From contig CALBTC010000337.1 in assembly GCA_937967805.1 (NCBI GenBank), positions 1-5,250 on the forward strand: a stretch of DNA of 5,250 bases, given 5' to 3'. Position 1 is the first letter of the stretch, and every line of letters begins with the position of its first letter. The notes beneath the pieces are model-generated. The model searched no databases. It was given only the letters and a program-made list of their open reading frames with translations, and had not been told where the DNA came from. The position numbers were made by a program, and so were the translations under genes. Below are positions 1 to 5,250 of this stretch, in pieces. The stretch is from an uncultured Anaerolineaceae bacterium (GTDB lineage: Bacteria; Chloroflexota; Anaerolineae; Promineifilales; Promineifilaceae).

Positions 1-2
1 CG

Positions 3-890
3 CCGGTGCGCCGCATCGGGCTGGTGCTGCCGGCCATCATCATGGCCTCGGCTTCTGGCGAGCGCATCTTTGAAATTTTAGACCAGATTCCCGACGTCGA
101 TGACGCGCCCGATGCCGTCGATCTGCCTAAAATCACCGGCAAGGTGCAGTTTGAGGACGTCTCTTTTGGCTACCTGAAGCGGCACCGCGTGCTGAAAAAT
201 ATCAACTTTGCCGCCGAGCCGGGGCAAGTGATTGCATTGCTGGGGGCCACCGGCGCGGGCAAATCGACCATCATGAATTTGCTGCCCCGCTTTTATGATC
301 CGACCGGCGGGCGGGTGCTGGTAGACGGCCACGATTTGCGCCAGGTGACGCTGGCCTCGCTGCGCAGCCAGATGGGCATTGTGCTGCAAGAAACGACGCT
401 GTTTGCCGCCACCATCGGCGAAAATATCGCCTTCAGCCAGCCGGAAGCCACAGAGGCGGACATCATCACCGTGGCCAAAGCGGCCCAGGCCCATGAGTTC
501 ATCAGTCAACTGCCCAAAGGGTACGAAACCCACGTGGGCGAGCGTGGCGTGACGCTGTCCGGCGGGCAAAAGCAGCGCATTGCCATCGCCCGTGCCCTGC
601 TGGCCGATCCGGCCATCCTTATTTTGGATGACGCCACGGCCAGCGTAGATACACAGACGGAGCGGTTGATTCAGCAGGCATTGGAGAATTTGATGAACGG
701 CCGTACCACCTTCGTCATTGCCCATCGCCTGAGTACCGTGCGTCGCGCCGACCTGATTCTGGTTCTGGAAAAAGGGGAGATTGTGGCCCGCGGCACGCAT
801 GATGCGCTGCTGGAGAGCTCGGCCCATTACCAGGAGATTTATAACAGGCAGTTACGGCCGCAAGAAAGAAGTTTGCAAGTGGGCAAGTAG
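3..890 (+). CDS. ABC exporter half-transporter, 5'-truncated (degenerate-site subunit)
   Basis: This is the C-terminal part of a membrane ABC exporter; the reading frame is open to the left edge, so the start and most of the membrane domain are missing. Residues are counted from the GTG at position 6. Residues 1-40 are the end of the last membrane helix and the linker (SGERIFEILD). The nucleotide-binding domain follows: Walker A GATGAGKST (80-88), Q-loop Q128, signature LSGGQ (184-188), Walker B ILILDD (D208, D209) and H-loop H240. The catalytic Walker B glutamate is replaced by Asp209, as in the degenerate-site subunits of heterodimeric exporters (BmrC, LmrC, TM287). The signature is fully canonical. 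The next gene, 70 bp downstream, carries the complementary defect, so the two probably form one heterodimer. Substrate is unknown; drug or lipid export is typical of the family. The last codons (LQVGK) and the TAG stop lie in an intergenic fold-back repeat. Family assignment is very secure; the pairing is inference. Confidence 0.95.
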   Translation, partial: PVRRIGLVLPAIIMASASGERIFEILDQIPDVDDAPDAVDLPKITGKVQFEDVSFGYLKRHRVLKNINFAAEPGQVIALLGATGAGKSTIMNLLPRFYDPTGGRVLVDGHDLRQVTLASLRSQMGIVLQETTLFAATIGENIAFSQPEATEADIITVAKAAQAHEFISQLPKGYETHVGERGVTLSGGQKQRIAIARALLADPAILILDDATASVDTQTERLIQQALENLMNGRTTFVIAHRLSTVRRADLILVLEKGEIVARGTHDALLESSAHYQEIYNRQLRPQERSLQVGK

Positions 891-946
891 CAAGTTTGCA
901 AGTCACTTGCATACCTGCAAACTTGCATACTGGCATATTCGCAAAC
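871..946. repeat. Heptad-unit fold-back repeat in the exporter intergenic gap
   Basis: GCAAGT occurs four times at 875, 883, 890 and 898 (spacing 8, 7, 8). Inverted copies follow (ACTTGC at 905 and 921, with degenerate units TGGCATA and CGCAAA). The best-paired core is a perfect 11-bp inverted repeat, GCAAGTTTGCA (890-900) with TGCAAACTTGC (916-926). GTTTGC at 871 with GCAAAC at 941 closes the outer end. It spans the last codons and stop of the upstream gene and most of the gap to the next. No U-tract follows, so it is not a classical terminator. It has the same design as the fold-backs at 3921-3994 and 4063-4116. Confidence 0.8.
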
Positions 947-951
947 AAAGG
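947..951 (+). promoter_or_regulatory. Ribosome binding site for the second exporter gene
   Basis: AAAGG lies 9 nt before the ATG at 961 and just outside the fold-back. It supports that ATG over the longer open frame, which runs upstream into the previous gene. Confidence 0.5.
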
Positions 952-960
952 TTTTTACAC

Positions 961-2790
961 ATGAGTTTTTCCATCGGATCATCTGGACCCAACATGGGGC
1001 CCCGCGGGGCATTGCACCGCTTTGGCCAGGAAGACGCTGGACAGCTATTTGATCAGCGAGTGGTGGTGCGGATGTTGGCCTATTTGAAGCCATACGGCCG
1101 TTACATGACTATCGCCACCGTTTTAATGTTGATTGCCACCGGCATGACCCTGCTCGTGCCCTATCTGGTTAAAATCGCCATCGACGAGCACATTGCCCAG
1201 AGCAACACTGCCGGCCTTATTCGTGTAGCCAGTTATATCGGCGGCGCATTTGTGCTGTTGTATGTGGCCTCCGCCGGGCAGCGTTACCTGTTAGGCTGGG
1301 TGGGGCAGCGCGTTTTGGCCAACATGCGTGAGCACATGTTTCGCCATTTGCAGGCTTTGCCGCTGGCCTACCATGATACCCACATCGTCGGCGTGACCGT
1401 CTCGCGGGTGATGAACGACGTGGCCGTCATCAACGATCTGCTGTCGCAGGGGTTGGTGACGTTGATTGGCGATTTGCTGGTGCTGCTGGGCATCATCATT
1501 GTCATGCTGTCAATGAGTCCGCGGCTGGCGTTGATCACCTTCACTGTGCTGCCGCTGATGGTACTGGTGACGGTGCTGTTCTCGCGCCGGGCTAAGGTGG
1601 CGTTCCGGCGCACGCGATCCAGCGTGGCTGCCGTGGTGGGCGATCTGGCGGAAGGCATTGCCGGGATGCGCGTCATCCAGGCGTTTGCCCAGGAGGAGGT
1701 GGCGCAGGCCCGCTTCGACGAAATTAACGAATCGAACAAGACGGCGCATGTGGATGCGATGTCACTCTCGTTTATTTTCTTGCCCTCGATTGAATTTATG
1801 GGGATGCTGGCAACGGCCGTTGTCCTCTGGTTTGGTGGTGTGGCCGTGAGCCGGGGTGGCGTGACGCTGGGCGTGCTGGTCGCTTTTCTGGCCTACGTTA
1901 CCCGCTTCTTCCAGCCCATTCAGGAATTGAGCCAACTGTACACCACCATGCAGTCGGCCATGGCCGGTGGGGCGGAAGTGCTGCGCCTGATCGATACGGA
2001 ACCGACGGTGGCCGATGCGCCTGACGCCATTGAAATGCCCCGCGTGCGCGGTGAGGTTGAGTTGAAAGACGTCTCCTTCCGCTACCGGCCGGAAACGCCG
2101 GAAGTGCTGCACAACATCAACCTGCACATCGCGGCCGGGCAGACGGTGGCTTTGGTGGGGCCAACCGGTGCGGGCAAAAGTTCTATTGCCAACCTGATTG
2201 CCCGTTTTTACGATGCCACCGAAGGCGAGGTGCTTATCGACGGCATGGATGTACAATCGGTACAGCAGCAGTCGCTGCGGGCGCAGACGGGCATTGTGTC
2301 GCAGGATCCGTTCCTCTTTTCTGGCACCATCGGGGAGAATATTCGCTTTGGTAATGCAGCGGCGGCGGAAACGGCCGTTATCGCCGCCGCCAAAATGGCC
2401 AATGCCCACGAGTTCATTGCCGCCCTCCCAGACGGCTACGAAACGCAGATTTTGGAGGGTGGGGTGAATATCTCGCTAGGGCAGCGGCAGCTCATCTGCA
2501 TCGCCCGCGCCGTCCTGGCCGATCCCCGCCTGCTCATTCTGGACGAGGCCACGGCCAACGTAGACACGCTCACCGAGGCGCTCATCCAGGAGGCGTTGGA
2601 GCGGCTGCTGCAAGGGCGTACAGCGATTGTCATCGCTCACCGCTTGAGTACAATTCGTCGCGCCGATTTGATTTGCGTGGTGCAGGACGGCCGACTCGTC
2701 GAACAAGGTGTGCACGAGGCGCTGCTGGCGCAAAAAGGCCTGTACCGCGAATTGTACGAGCGCCAGTTTGTGAATGATGTGCGGGTGTAA
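961..2790 (+). CDS. ABC exporter half-transporter (catalytic-site subunit), complete
   Basis: This is a 609-aa half-transporter, the normal size for an exporter with one six-helix membrane domain and one ATPase domain. Predicted membrane segments are near residues 48-70, 89-115, 163-184, 188-207, 268-290 and 300-318. The ATPase domain has a possible A-loop Y375, Walker A GPTGAGKSS (400-408), Q448, signature ISLGQ (504-508), Walker B LLILDE (D528, catalytic E529) and H560. The signature deviates from LSGGQ (Leu in place of the first Gly), while the Walker B glutamate is kept. This complements the upstream subunit. In the expected heterodimer, this protein's Walker A/B faces the partner's LSGGQ and forms the active site; the other site is degenerate. 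ATG 961 was chosen because it has a ribosome binding site and starts a normal cytoplasmic N-terminus; frame-open sequence upstream overlaps the previous gene. The gene is probably co-transcribed with the upstream gene. Substrate cannot be told from sequence. Confidence 0.97.
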   Translation: MSFSIGSSGPNMGPRGALHRFGQEDAGQLFDQRVVVRMLAYLKPYGRYMTIATVLMLIATGMTLLVPYLVKIAIDEHIAQSNTAGLIRVASYIGGAFVLLYVASAGQRYLLGWVGQRVLANMREHMFRHLQALPLAYHDTHIVGVTVSRVMNDVAVINDLLSQGLVTLIGDLLVLLGIIIVMLSMSPRLALITFTVLPLMVLVTVLFSRRAKVAFRRTRSSVAAVVGDLAEGIAGMRVIQAFAQEEVAQARFDEINESNKTAHVDAMSLSFIFLPSIEFMGMLATAVVLWFGGVAVSRGGVTLGVLVAFLAYVTRFFQPIQELSQLYTTMQSAMAGGAEVLRLIDTEPTVADAPDAIEMPRVRGEVELKDVSFRYRPETPEVLHNINLHIAAGQTVALVGPTGAGKSSIANLIARFYDATEGEVLIDGMDVQSVQQQSLRAQTGIVSQDPFLFSGTIGENIRFGNAAAAETAVIAAAKMANAHEFIAALPDGYETQILEGGVNISLGQRQLICIARAVLADPRLLILDEATANVDTLTEALIQEALERLLQGRTAIVIAHRLSTIRRADLICVVQDGRLVEQGVHEALLAQKGLYRELYERQFVNDVRV

Positions 2791-2793
2791 AAT

Positions 2794-2851
2794 GTAGGGG
2801 TAGATCCCCGTGTCTACCCCAATCAGGGCAGGCACAGGGACCTGCCCCTAC
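2794..2851. repeat. Twin-hairpin intergenic repeat
   Basis: Two hairpins sit side by side, related to each other by inversion. The left is GGGGTAGA (2797-2804) with TCTACCCC (2813-2820), 8 bp around an 8-nt loop. The right is GGGCAGG (2826-2832) with CCTGCCC (2841-2847), 7 bp around an 8-nt loop. An outer pair, GTAGGGG (2794-2800) with CCCCTAC (2845-2851), could close the whole into one long stem. It begins 4 nt after the stop of the exporter gene and ends 27 nt before the acetyltransferase start. It could slow or end transcription between them, but there is no U-tract on the + strand. It resembles repetitive extragenic palindromes in form. Confidence 0.85.
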
Positions 2852-2867
2852 CAAATCGCCAAACGGC

Positions 2868-2872
2868 AGGAA
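2868..2872 (+). promoter_or_regulatory. Ribosome binding site for the acetyltransferase
   Basis: AGGAA lies 6 nt before the ATG at 2879. It decides the start: an in-frame GTG at 2810 would add 23 residues encoded by the twin-hairpin repeat and has no ribosome binding site. Confidence 0.6.
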
Positions 2873-2878
2873 ATCAAA

Positions 2879-3730
2879 ATGAACGTCAAAATATTTAAGA
2901 CACCAAACGATTTTTTGGACGCGACGTTAGATTATCTCGAGGCGCAGGAGGTACTGAATGGCCTCATGTTGGGGATTGCGTTTCGCCTGAGCCAGAGCGC
3001 GCCGCGGCGGCGGAATCGGCCGTTTTTGGCGGTGGTAGAAGACGGAGGTGAATTGGCCGGCGCAGCGGTCATGACCCCACCGCGTAAAATGATCTTGTAT
3101 AGCCATTTGTCCCACTGCCAGTCGGTGGTGCAGGCGCTTTGGGATTCGTTGCAAGGCAGTCGCTGGACGGTACCAGGGGTGCTAGGGCCCGCCAATGTGG
3201 CGGACGCGTGGGCGGCGTTGTGGGGGCGGGTAAACGGCCGTCCCCCCCAACCAGGTACGCGGCAGCGCGTCTTTAAACTGAAGCAGGTCCAGGGGCTCAT
3301 CTTACCGCCGGGTCAACTCCGTTTAGCCAATGCCGATGATTTTGAGCGGGTGGTGGGCTGGGTCCAGGCATTTCATGAAGATGCCAACATTCGTGATAAT
3401 TTAGAATCGGCCGAGCTGCTGGCGCGGGGCAAAATGCAGAACGAAGATCTGTTTTTGTGGGAAGATGAAGCGGGCGAGCCGGTCTCTATGGCCGCTAAAG
3501 CGCGCCCCACGCGACACGGCATCACCGTTGGGTTGGTGTATACACCTGCCGCTCTGCGTGGTCGCGGCTACGCCACCGCCTGCGTGGCCACCCTTAGCCA
3601 GCGGCTGCTGGACGAAGGTTACCAGTTCTGTACATTGTTTACGGACCTGAGCAATCCTGTGTCCAACCACATTTACGAAAAGATTGGGTATACGGCCGTT
3701 GCCGACTTTCATGAATATTTCTTTGGTTGA
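2879..3730 (+). CDS. GNAT-family N-acetyltransferase
   Basis: This 283-aa protein carries a C-terminal GNAT (Gcn5-related) acetyl-CoA-binding domain at about residues 165-283. The motif A region reads VGLVYTPAALRGRGYA, with the pyrophosphate-binding loop RGRGYA at 227-232. The late motif NPVSNHIYEKIGY is the typical C-terminal 'N..A...Y...GF' element. The N-terminal half (LNGLMLGIAFRL, then an AVV..GGELAGAAVMTPP stretch) resembles a degenerate first GNAT-like half, seen in two-part acetyltransferases of Firmicutes and related phyla. The acyl acceptor cannot be predicted. It could act on a small molecule such as an aminoglycoside or amine, or on a protein N-terminus. It is soluble, with no signal peptide or membrane segment. 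Context gives no clear role: an exporter lies upstream, and serS lies downstream with its own promoter. The stop TGA at 3728-3730 lies inside that promoter's -35 box. Family is secure; function is unknown. Confidence 0.9.
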   Translation: MNVKIFKTPNDFLDATLDYLEAQEVLNGLMLGIAFRLSQSAPRRRNRPFLAVVEDGGELAGAAVMTPPRKMILYSHLSHCQSVVQALWDSLQGSRWTVPGVLGPANVADAWAALWGRVNGRPPQPGTRQRVFKLKQVQGLILPPGQLRLANADDFERVVGWVQAFHEDANIRDNLESAELLARGKMQNEDLFLWEDEAGEPVSMAAKARPTRHGITVGLVYTPAALRGRGYATACVATLSQRLLDEGYQFCTLFTDLSNPVSNHIYEKIGYTAVADFHEYFFG

Positions 3731-3755
3731 CGGCCGTTCCCCCCCCAGCTATAAT
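3727..3755 (+). promoter_or_regulatory. Sigma-70-type promoter of the serS T-box transcript
   Basis: TTGACG (3727-3732) is separated from a consensus TATAAT (3750-3755) by 17 nt, which is optimal. Transcription would start near 3761-3763, just ahead of T-box Stem I. The -35 box uses the TGA stop of the acetyltransferase and overlaps an ACGGCCGT octamer. The spacer contains a run of eight C residues (3739-3746). Confidence 0.85.
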
Positions 3756-3920
3756 GCTCAGCAACAAGATACACACCGACGATGACAGAGACAAGTACGG
3801 CCGTCGCAATCCCCAGAGAGTTCGCGGACGGTGTAAGCGAATGATTGTCCAGCCGGAAATCCACTCTAGAGTCGCTGCCGAAACAAGGCAAGCCGGGTCA
3901 GCCCGTTACAGCTTTTTGAG

Positions 3921-3994
3921 ATCGGTAATCAGTAATCGGTAGTGTGGTAATCGGTAAAAAACCGTTTACCGTTCACCGATAACCGTTTACCGAT
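3921..3994. repeat. Heptad-unit fold-back inside the T-box linker
   Basis: The left arm is ATCGGTA, ATCAGTA, ATCGGTA, GTGTGGTA, ATCGGTA (units of 7, 7, 7, 8, 7 starting at 3921). The right arm is ACCGTTT, ACCGTTC, ACCGATA, ACCGTTT, ACCGATA in exact 7-nt steps from 3961; its last base is 3995. The arms pair imperfectly, with ATCGGTAA (3921-3928) matching TTACCGAT (3987-3994) at the base. It sits between Stem III and the antiterminator, where T-boxes tolerate variable linkers. It would fold as an independent long hairpin in the leader RNA. Confidence 0.85.
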
Positions 3995-3998
3995 AAAA

Positions 3999-4030
3999 CC
4001 AGGTGGCACCACGGGCCCCCCTCGTCCTGG
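3999..4030 (+). promoter_or_regulatory. T-box antiterminator
   Basis: Helix A1 is CCAGG (3999-4003) with CCUGG (4026-4030). The bulge is UGGCACC (4004-4010), and helix A2 is ACG (4011-4013) with CGU (4023-4025). The bulge UGGC pairs with the tRNA 3' end GCCA; the fourth base C matches discriminator G73, which bacterial tRNA-Ser carries. The strand 4023-4026 is shared with the terminator, so the two folds exclude each other. Confidence 0.93.
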
Positions 4031-4058
4031 AAAAGAGACGAGGGGGCTTTTTTATTTT
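4017..4058 (+). terminator. T-box Rho-independent terminator
   Basis: CCCCCTCGTC (4017-4026) pairs perfectly with GACGAGGGGG (4037-4046), a 10-bp stem with a 10-nt loop. TTTTTTATTTT follows from 4048. It forms when charged tRNA-Ser is abundant and stops transcription before serS. Confidence 0.95.
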
Positions 4059-4062
4059 AGTG

Positions 4063-4116
4063 GCTGGTGGTTAGTGGTTAGTGGCTGGTAACGACCACTA
4101 GCCACTAACCACCAGC
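4063..4116. repeat. 22-bp heptad-unit hairpin between terminator and serS
   Basis: The arm 4063-4084 pairs with 4095-4116 over 22 positions, with a single G-U wobble, around a 10-nt loop. The left side is built of 7-nt units TAGTGGC, TGGTGGT, TAGTGGT, TAGTGGC from 4058. The right side has GACCACT, AGCCACT, AACCACC from 4093. No U-tract follows, so it is not a second terminator. It ends 6 nt before the serS ribosome binding site and would lie in the 5' UTR of every full-length serS mRNA. Confidence 0.9.
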
Positions 4117-4122
4117 AGCTTT

Positions 4123-4127
4123 GGAGG
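4123..4127 (+). promoter_or_regulatory. Ribosome binding site for serS
   Basis: GGAGG lies 5 nt before ATG 4133. It selects this ATG over an in-frame TTG at 4121, which overlaps the site itself. Confidence 0.85.
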
Positions 4128-4132
4128 TTCTT

Positions 4133-5250
4133 ATGCTAGACATTAACTTGATACGAGAAAAACCGGCATGGGTGAAGGAGCAGGTGGCCAAGCGCAACCA
4201 GACCGCGCCCATTGATGAGATTTTGGCCGACGACGGCCGTCGTCGCGAAATCTTGCAGGAAGTAGAAGAACTACGCCGCCAGCGGAACGAAAGCTCGAAG
4301 CAAATCGGCCGTTGGATGGGCAGCCTGTAGAAGATGGAAGCCGCTGTACGTCGCGCCGAAGCCGGGCAGGATGTGGGCCAGCCGGTCGAGGCGCTGCGCA
4401 CGCAGGTGCAGGCGCTGCAAAACAATGCCGAGCAGGCCAAAGACGAAACCCGCGAAATCGGCGACAAGATTGCCGCTTACGACGAAGAGCTGCGCGAAGT
4501 TGAAGAGCGGCTAAACGAAAATCTGCTGTGGGTGCCGAATTTGGTGCACGAAAGCGTGCCCGTTGGGCCAGATGAGGCGCACAACACCTTTCATGAGCCC
4601 CAGGGTGCACCGGAGCCGCAGTTCGATTTTGAGCCGAAGCCACATTGGGAATTGGGGCCAAAGCTAAACATCATCGACTTTGAACGCGGGGTGAAGCTAA
4701 GCGGCAGCCGCTTCTACGTTTTGCGCGGTGCCGGGGCACGTTTACAGCGAGCATTGATCCAGTTCATGCTCAACTACCATCTGGAGCATCACGGCTTTAC
4801 CGAGATTTATCCGCCGTTTATGGTGCGTTCATATGTGTTTGAAGGCGCCGGGCAGCTACCCAAGTTCTTTGACAACATCTACCGCGACGCTGAAGAAGAT
4901 TTCATGTGGCTGGGTACGGCCGAAATCGCCCTGACCAACCTGCACCGCGACGAAATTCTGGATGAGGCCGACCTGCCGCTGAAATATGTGGCCTACACGC
5001 CCTGCTGGCGGCGCGAGAAGATGAGCGCGGGCAAGGACGTGCGCGGCATCAAGCGCGGCCACCAGTTCGACAAGGTGGAAATGTACCAGTTTGTCCATCC
5101 TGACAAGAGCTACCAAGTCCTGGAAGAGATGAAGCAGTACGCCCAGGCCATCTGTGACGCGCTCGGTTTTCGCTACCGCTTTGTAGATTTGGCCACGGGC
5201 GACGTGGGCTTTGCCATGACCAAAACATACGACATCGAAGTGTGGGCGGC
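4133..5250 (+). CDS. serS: Seryl-tRNA synthetase, in-frame amber at codon 66, 3'-truncated by the window
   Basis: SerRS is a cytoplasmic class II synthetase that charges tRNA-Ser with serine. Residues count the amber as 66. Residues 1-27 match the SerRS start (MLDINLIREKPAWVKEQ). The charged region from about 28 to 105 is the long coiled-coil arm that grips the tRNA-Ser variable arm. Motif 1 is around 203-228 (ending IYPP). The serine-binding TxE motif is T262-A263-E264. Motif 2 runs from 289 to 317 (TPCWRRE, then RGHQFDKVEM). The frame then continues as GDVGFAMTKTYDIEVWA to the edge. Motif 3 and about 50 residues lie outside. The frame is interrupted by TAG at 4328-4330, near the tip of the coiled coil; the same frame resumes without any other stop or gap. 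The gene may be broken, may carry a sequencing error (CAG to TAG is one change), or may be read through. An ATG at 4334 could restart translation but has only a weak upstream site. The complete T-box upstream argues that the gene is used. Identity is certain; functional state is not. Confidence 0.93.
4328..4330 (+). other. serS: In-frame amber codon within serS
   Basis: The codons read GGC AGC CTG TAG AAG ATG GAA. Sequence on both sides matches SerRS in the same frame, so this is a nonsense codon and not a frameshift. Gln is the simplest original residue. The upstream exporter gene also ends in TAG (888-890) at a normal C-terminal position, which argues against a general reassignment of amber. 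Confidence 0.9.

Follow-up and report, generated by a model that had tools for sequence, protein, structure and literature searches.

How do three hairpins with no sequence in common come to be built alike within 5,250 nucleotides? The question is raised by a stretch of DNA from an uncultured Anaerolineaceae bacterium (contig CALBTC010000337.1, positions 1 to 5,250, hereafter the window), which carries three fold-back elements, numbered 1 to 3 in order of position, each consisting of inverted arms of tandem 7- or 8-nt units. We propose that these elements probably belong, without a gene of their own, to a dispersed class of fold-backs that resemble the intervening sequences (IVSs) of 23S rRNA; in its full form, such a fold-back has a gene for the IVS protein (IVP; PF05635) enclosed by two inverted arrays of 7- or 8-nt units. 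The known 23S rRNA IVSs would then be the members of this class that are lodged in rRNA. The window elements are neither copies of one mobile sequence nor isolated accidents; they behave like the IVS class but fail two defining features of a 23S IVS, its place and its gene.

A first-pass annotation of the window had put the fold-backs at 871-946, 3921-3994 and 4063-4116 and described them as alike in design and unlike in sequence. Both statements are borne out: all three elements fold back, and in DNA folding with short flanks each is better than all 200 dinucleotide shuffles (z of -3.4, -4.9 and -8.1 for elements 1, 2 and 3). The period given for them, however, needs correction. With all same-length windows within the 5250 bases as reference, autocorrelation at lag 7 reaches z 5.3 for element 2 (3921-3994) and z 5.6 for element 3 (4058-4116), whereas element 1 (871-946) peaks at lag 8 (z 6.2) and is ordinary at lag 7 (z 0.8). 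Tandem Repeats Finder reports period 8 at 869-903 and 905-937 in element 1, and period 7 at 3921-3957, 3961-3992, 4058-4086 and 4095-4116. The GCAAGT copies of element 1, at 875, 883, 890 and 898, are spaced by 8, 7 and 8 nt, and its right arm advances in 8-nt steps. The design is therefore common to all three, and "heptad" is the correct word for elements 2 and 3 only, element 1 being an octad. None of the window loops holds an open reading frame (ORF), being too short for one.

The same architecture recurs throughout related genomes. We scanned 1,559,601 bases in seven contig stretches of three sister Anaerolineae genomes (G001-G003) and found 546 ungapped fold-backs; when a lag match of 0.5 or more is taken as periodic, the best lag is 7 in 81 of them, 8 in 44, 9 in 16 and 10 in 7. 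A second-order Markov control yields 104 fold-backs with a single periodic one, at lag 5, which rules out a chance origin. An excess of 7-nt periodicity, on which the first-pass annotation had staked its claim, is thus present in these contig stretches, with 81 lag-7 fold-backs against none in the control. About one in four of the fold-backs (125/546) are gene-less copies of period 7 or 8. Not all of these are intergenic, since 57 of the 125 coincide in part with a mechanical ORF of at least 400 nt. Fold-backs of the unit GGAGATT also lie in frame within long ORFs that we take to be purL (G002 C77, about 121950-123860; G001 C2, about 154480-156090), where they add peptides such as ETGDWRLETESQSPVSNLQSP.

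These arrays have a direction. No heptad element (0/81) belongs to the reverse class of any unit found, and the 5' arm is purine-rich in 76 of the 81 and pyrimidine-rich in 2. Across 52 genomes of the family, the GGAGATT fold-back gives 712 overlapping matches in 19 genomes, and its reverse order a single match in one.

The link to a protein comes from fold-backs with long loops. Searching these for genes through exact 12-mer arms returned mostly pairs of separate fold-backs, together with one octad fold-back (L022) that encloses a 110-aa ORF matching PF05635 (23S_rRNA_IVP, E 2.8e-25). This ORF also matches bAvd at 6.7e-5, under the cut-off of the bAvd family. IVP, a four-helix bundle related to the solved structures 2rld and 2gsc, weakly matches bAvd of the diversity-generating retroelements. 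The three sister genomes hold 11 PF05635 matches, and 10 of these have an exact inverted pair of at least 10 nt in periodic context (lag match at least 0.5); the eleventh (L127) failed this automated test and has degenerate heptad arms by eye. As controls we used 989 mechanical ORFs of 300-480 nt, 15 of which pass at 10 nt with a lag match of at least 0.45. At 11 nt the comparison is 9/11 PF05635 genes vs 6/989 control ORFs, one of the six being a PF13366 gene.

PF05635 is present in 47 of the 52 family genomes. Among 28 further family loci, which are the best matches of more than 140 listed, the arm test is passed by 18, including marginal passes such as L148 (0.49) and L154 (0.45); eight of the ten remaining loci have degenerate arms by eye, one (L157) is cut by the contig end and one (L160) has none. 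All three units of the window are themselves found in the arms next to IVP genes: GCAAGTTT at L129, GGTAATC at L122 and GTGGTTA in the left arm at L127. Our limited searches of open-licence literature found no paper that links heptad fold-backs outside rRNA to IVP.

Genes of PF13366, a PD-(D/E)XK nuclease family, also often lie within inverted arms, and there the unit is longer. Arms pass at 28 of 39 IVP loci, with period 7 in 21 and period 8 in 7, and at 18 of 40 PF13366 loci, with period 8 in 3, 9 in 6, 10 in 6, 11 in 3 and 7 in none. The difference in period 7 is significant (Fisher p 2e-7) in a comparison that scored lags 5 to 11 only, and that dropped 4 of the 18 PF13366 matches of G001-G003 (L143, L145, L146, L147) as fragments or second domains of a counted frame. 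Unit length therefore tracks the enclosed gene family, with 7-8 nt around IVP and 8-11 nt around PF13366. The GxxExxY literature consulted does not concern repeats.

Enclosure of IVP by such arms extends to other phyla. Among 72,556 plasmid records, 34 match an IVP query that detects close relatives only; 33 are cyanobacterial by name and one is from Azospirillum. Ten of the 34 were inspected, picked for different genera, and automated values show inverted 7/8-nt arms in eight, namely seven cyanobacterial loci and the Azospirillum locus; of the other two, L188 has degenerate arms by eye and L190 none. The Azospirillum gene (L192, plasmid AZO_p2 of Azospirillum lipoferum 4B) lies inside what we take, from its conserved sequence, to be a 23S rRNA gene, between heptad arms with units such as GACGGAT and GACAGAG. 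It is a classical IVS of the same heptad-arm design. The IVP gene is unannotated there, the PLSDB table giving no feature in that stretch. According to a published account, tandem heptamers precede the S23p gene in a 23S IVS, their copy number varies among strains, and RNase III excises the insert (PMC4990558). A 23S rRNA IVS in the sister genomes themselves was considered and set aside: the one whole 23S gene, in G001, has no large insert, and the matches in G002 and G003 are partial pieces.

Orthologous places in the sister genomes show how the elements change. Syntenic loci (L001-L003, from Anaerolineae metagenome-assembled genomes) were found with the acetyltransferase protein of the window. 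At the place of element 1, all three have a fold-back (z -3.1, -5.6 and -3.7), with the units GCGAGT, GCAAGT and TCAAGT, respectively. Up to element 2, the T-box leader of the sisters shares 94-97% identity with that of the window, whereas element 2 itself is 61-74% identical and has a different unit mix. Measured against single-base shuffles, its slot keeps a long hairpin in L001 (RNA z -6.2) and L003 (z -4.0), and L002 has an 8-bp stem only (z -2.0). By eye, L001-L003 show nothing like element 3 at the corresponding site. In L001, the gap between the acetyltransferase gene and the T-box holds a CACGAAT-type fold-back (10843-10950) that is absent, also by eye, from L002, L003 and the window.

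On a larger scale, 78 periodic elements of G001, each counted once, give 30 with a well-anchored sister gap. A periodic fold-back is present in at least one sister gap for 21 of these 30, compared with 1 of 82 anchored controls, which were random intergenic positions without a fold-back (Fisher p 1e-14). For 10 of the 30 the sister fold-back has a different unit, vs 1/82 controls (Fisher p 5e-6), so that the unit replacement at orthologous gaps for which the first-pass annotation had suggested looking does occur. Examples are GGTAATC vs GGGGTGA and GGAGATT vs ACGCAAAG. When every pair is included, so that some sites enter twice, in both directions, 49 of 72 have a fold-back (29 of the same unit, 18 of a different one and 2 between) vs 5/121 controls. 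The 6-mer thresholds for "same" and "different" were chosen after viewing a first comparison of 65 pairs (25 same, 28 different, 12 without a fold), in which some "different" cases were drifted versions of one unit.

The T-box leader that hosts element 2, of which the first-pass annotation made no mention, is one of many. It passes the Rfam gathering score of RF00230 upstream of serS (108.3 vs 93 bits), and G001-G003 hold 28 T-box matches. When the window leader and 23 of these 28 were tested with single-base shuffles, a heptad stretch was found at p 0.005 or less in 17 of the 24 leaders and at 0.010 in two more. Rfam alignments, together with inspection by eye, place these stretches in stem I, in the stem III slot or in the loop ahead of that slot, and several leaders have a second unit, GGAGATT, 3' of the terminator. 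A T-box-specific role was rejected: most periodic fold-backs lie outside T-box leaders, and those inside occupy different leader parts.

Several observations weigh against a tie between the fold-backs and IVP. The window elements contain no ORF, so their link to IVP rests on shared units and design, and for GTGGTTA the only such arm, at L127, is a degenerate one that did not pass the automated test. Heptads flank the gene on both sides at L168, but with different units, and the arm units at L165 are of about 8-9 nt by eye. The numbers of elements and genes are uncoupled for the one unit compared, GGAGATT: G006 has 109 GGAGATT matches vs 2 IVP matches, G041 has 0 vs 8, and G018 has 3 without any IVP match. 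In favor of the tie, the genomes G014 and G025, which lack a PF05635 match, have no period-7/8 fold-back vs 9.1 expected at the density of G001-G003, in a small sample of 113,346 bases, mostly short contigs. Also against the proposed class, no target-site duplication was found when 4- to 7-mers flanking 125 elements were compared with shuffled flank pairings (shared 5-mers in 9/125 vs a shuffled mean of 9.1), and loops vary by eye among unlinked copies of one unit, unlike those of ordinary miniature inverted-repeat transposable elements (MITEs). Octad polarity is loose, AATTGAGT being found 15 times vs 4 in reverse and AATTGGGT 9 times vs 1, and the gradual drift at the element 1 site (GCAAGT, GCGAGT, TCAAGT) needs no mobility.

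Such points could suggest that there is no mobile element at all, and that a 7-8-nt unit grows on the spot by slippage and template switching at a small hairpin, IVP genes surviving inside by chance. The drift of units with pairing kept would fit (the leader at 94-97%, element 2 at 61-74%, folds in L001 and L003), as would the missing target-site duplication and the short stem that is all L002 has in its T-box slot; according to one study, the long simple repeats that most genomes contain in the greatest number are heptanucleotides (PMC4679880). If the units grew on the spot, however, both polarities would be expected, and the same units are seen in one polarity at many unlinked places; moreover, the arms of IVP genes stand far above those of control ORFs, and unit length tracks the enclosed gene family. 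We consider this explanation unlikely. The first-pass annotation had itself preferred a process to the copying of one mobile sequence. One that is linked to a protein of the element is indeed a better candidate than copies of a single fixed sequence, but the units do not arise anew at each site: they form shared families with one polarity.

High copy number, dispersal and fixed polarity would equally suit ordinary MITEs or repetitive extragenic palindromic (REP) elements moved by a DDE or Y1 transposase. Many units, differing loops and the lack of a fixed terminal sequence and of target-site duplication make this very improbable. Copies of a single MITE were rejected, as the design is common but the sequence is not, the loops differ and the flanks carry no duplication; several unit families with differing loops stand where a MITE would have fixed, shared terminal inverted repeats. 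That the hairpins are selected RNA parts, for example a lengthened stem III by which the T-box switch is adjusted, seems to us scarcely credible. Pairing is kept despite fast change, and 17 of 24 T-box leaders have a significant heptad stretch; but the hairpins sit in varied parts of the leaders, in gaps without known structured RNA and in frame within genes, and L002 and some other leaders have no long hairpin.

Based on the above data, we return to the dispersed IVS-like class and propose the following course. Arrays built from one unit, and in the same arm order, recur at numerous unlinked sites and also flank IVP genes. The elements would disperse as units, aided by IVP or by a recruited partner, although transposition itself was not observed. 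They would settle or persist where one more hairpin causes little damage, as the sites we see suggest (T-box loops, positions just after terminators, gene ends), and could there be exchanged for other units, as the different units at orthologous sites may reflect. Tandem slippage would alter copy number, and copying from arm to arm could keep the pairing while the unit drifts. Once transcribed, the hairpin might act as a harmless stem extension or as an RNase III target, as published work on 23S IVSs suggests. RVT_1 genes are present in all three genomes (G001-G003), so a reverse-transcriptase route is conceivable but not supported.

A wider scheme, which we offer tentatively and think rather less than probable, would have two parallel classes of hairpin in which the protein sets the unit length, 7-8 nt for the Avd-like four-helix protein and 8-11 nt for the GxxExxY PD-(D/E)XK nuclease. 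These proteins, perhaps with reverse transcriptase or the replication machinery, would copy purine-first arms between hairpins without target-site duplication, overwriting hairpins of other families; 23S IVSs, the P6b stems of Nostoc and the cyanobacterial heptad repeats might all be traces of this activity.

The features of the window are collected below. The 5' end of element 1 overlaps the final codons and the stop of the upstream transporter gene.

Features of the 5,250-nt window, with the basis of each assignment
Feature	Coordinates	Strand	Basis or remark
3' part of ABC transporter gene preceding element 1	3..890	+	named from motifs
Element 1, octad fold-back, GCAAGTTT-type	871..946	none	between two ABC-transporter genes
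ABC transporter gene, downstream of element 1	961..2790	+	named from motifs
GNAT-type acetyltransferase gene	2879..3730	+	query for syntenic sister loci
T-box leader RF00230	3773..4032	+	Rfam match, 108.3 bits
Element 2, heptad fold-back, GGTAATC/ACCGTTT-type	3921..3994	none	stem III slot of serS T-box leader
T-box intrinsic terminator stem and T-run	4016..4056	+	read by eye
Element 3, heptad fold-back, GTGGTTA-type	4058..4116	none	after T-box terminator T-run, before serS ribosome-binding site
serS (start), in-frame TAG at 4328-4330	4133..5250	+	lysine codon at the TAG site in L001-L003

All three sister loci (L001-L003) have a lysine codon in place of the in-frame TAG of serS, which may be a real nonsense change or a sequencing error. 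At 2791-2860, downstream of the second transporter gene and ahead of the acetyltransferase gene, an inverted GTAGGGG/CCCCTAC-type sequence was seen by eye and is possibly another dispersed repeat. The palindromic octamer ACGGCCGT occurs in 9 copies in the window, including 3234-3241, 3692-3699 and 3730-3737, vs 0.14 expected from base composition, and in 2623 copies vs 32.5 expected in 1.56 Mb of sister contigs, an 80-fold excess. This excess resembles that of the highly iterated palindrome HIP1 of cyanobacteria.

If the reading of the window elements as gene-less, IVS-like fold-backs is true, a little-known class of elements, with a named candidate protein, has left its trace in the form of much "low-complexity" DNA between genes. 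Heptad repeats and IVSs meet here, since the same kind of arms encloses the same small protein gene in Anaerolineae, on cyanobacterial plasmids and in a 23S insert, and gene-less copies are also found within riboswitches. That unit length goes with the gene family provides a direct way to approach what generates the repeats. We know of no explanation to date for the cyanobacterial heptad repeats, and 23S rRNA IVSs are likewise described as unexplained (PMC4990558).

The 23S IVS with its S23p/IVP gene is comparable in having heptad fold-back arms around that gene, as seen at L192 and in the published account (PMC4990558). The present elements differ in lying outside rRNA, in being mostly gene-less and dense, and in occupying T-box leaders, intergenic gaps and coding genes. 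A 23S IVS sits in a helix of 23S rRNA, and the window elements sit in a T-box leader and in gene gaps; PF05635 does not stand between their arms, but it does in sister elements of the same units (L122, L127, L129). Inverted tandem 7/8-nt arms are common to the window elements and the L192 insert. Other dispersed repeats offer partial parallels. Rickettsia palindromic elements are also palindromic and lie in frame inside genes, though heptad units in them are not known to us. REP sequences and their hairpin-forming doublets (REPINs), which accompany REP-associated tyrosine transposases (RAYTs), are likewise short dispersed hairpins, but with a fixed palindrome and no periodic unit. The short tandemly repeated repetitive (STRR) sequences of cyanobacteria are heptanucleotide tandem repeats, as are the TAACTGA repeats of Beggiatoaceae; elements 2 and 3 share their tandem 7-nt unit, element 1 having one of 8 nt, and STRR arrays are direct and without inversion, whereas all three window elements fold back. 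The TAACTGA heptamers are similar in their 7-nt unit and in being mostly intergenic, often before genes, but unlike the present fold-backs form 169 sets of direct repeats with one inverted case in the genome described (PMC4679880). The P6b stem of the Nostoc tRNA-Leu(UAA) group I intron is built from 7-nt units, TDNGATT or NNTGAGT; its length varies, and its heptad classes have been repeatedly replaced, much as units are exchanged at the Anaerolineae sites (PMC4476775). That stem is a single RNA site of cyanobacteria, for which the available passages name neither a protein nor a genome-wide element, whereas the fold-backs described here are dispersed and share their units with arms that enclose IVP genes.

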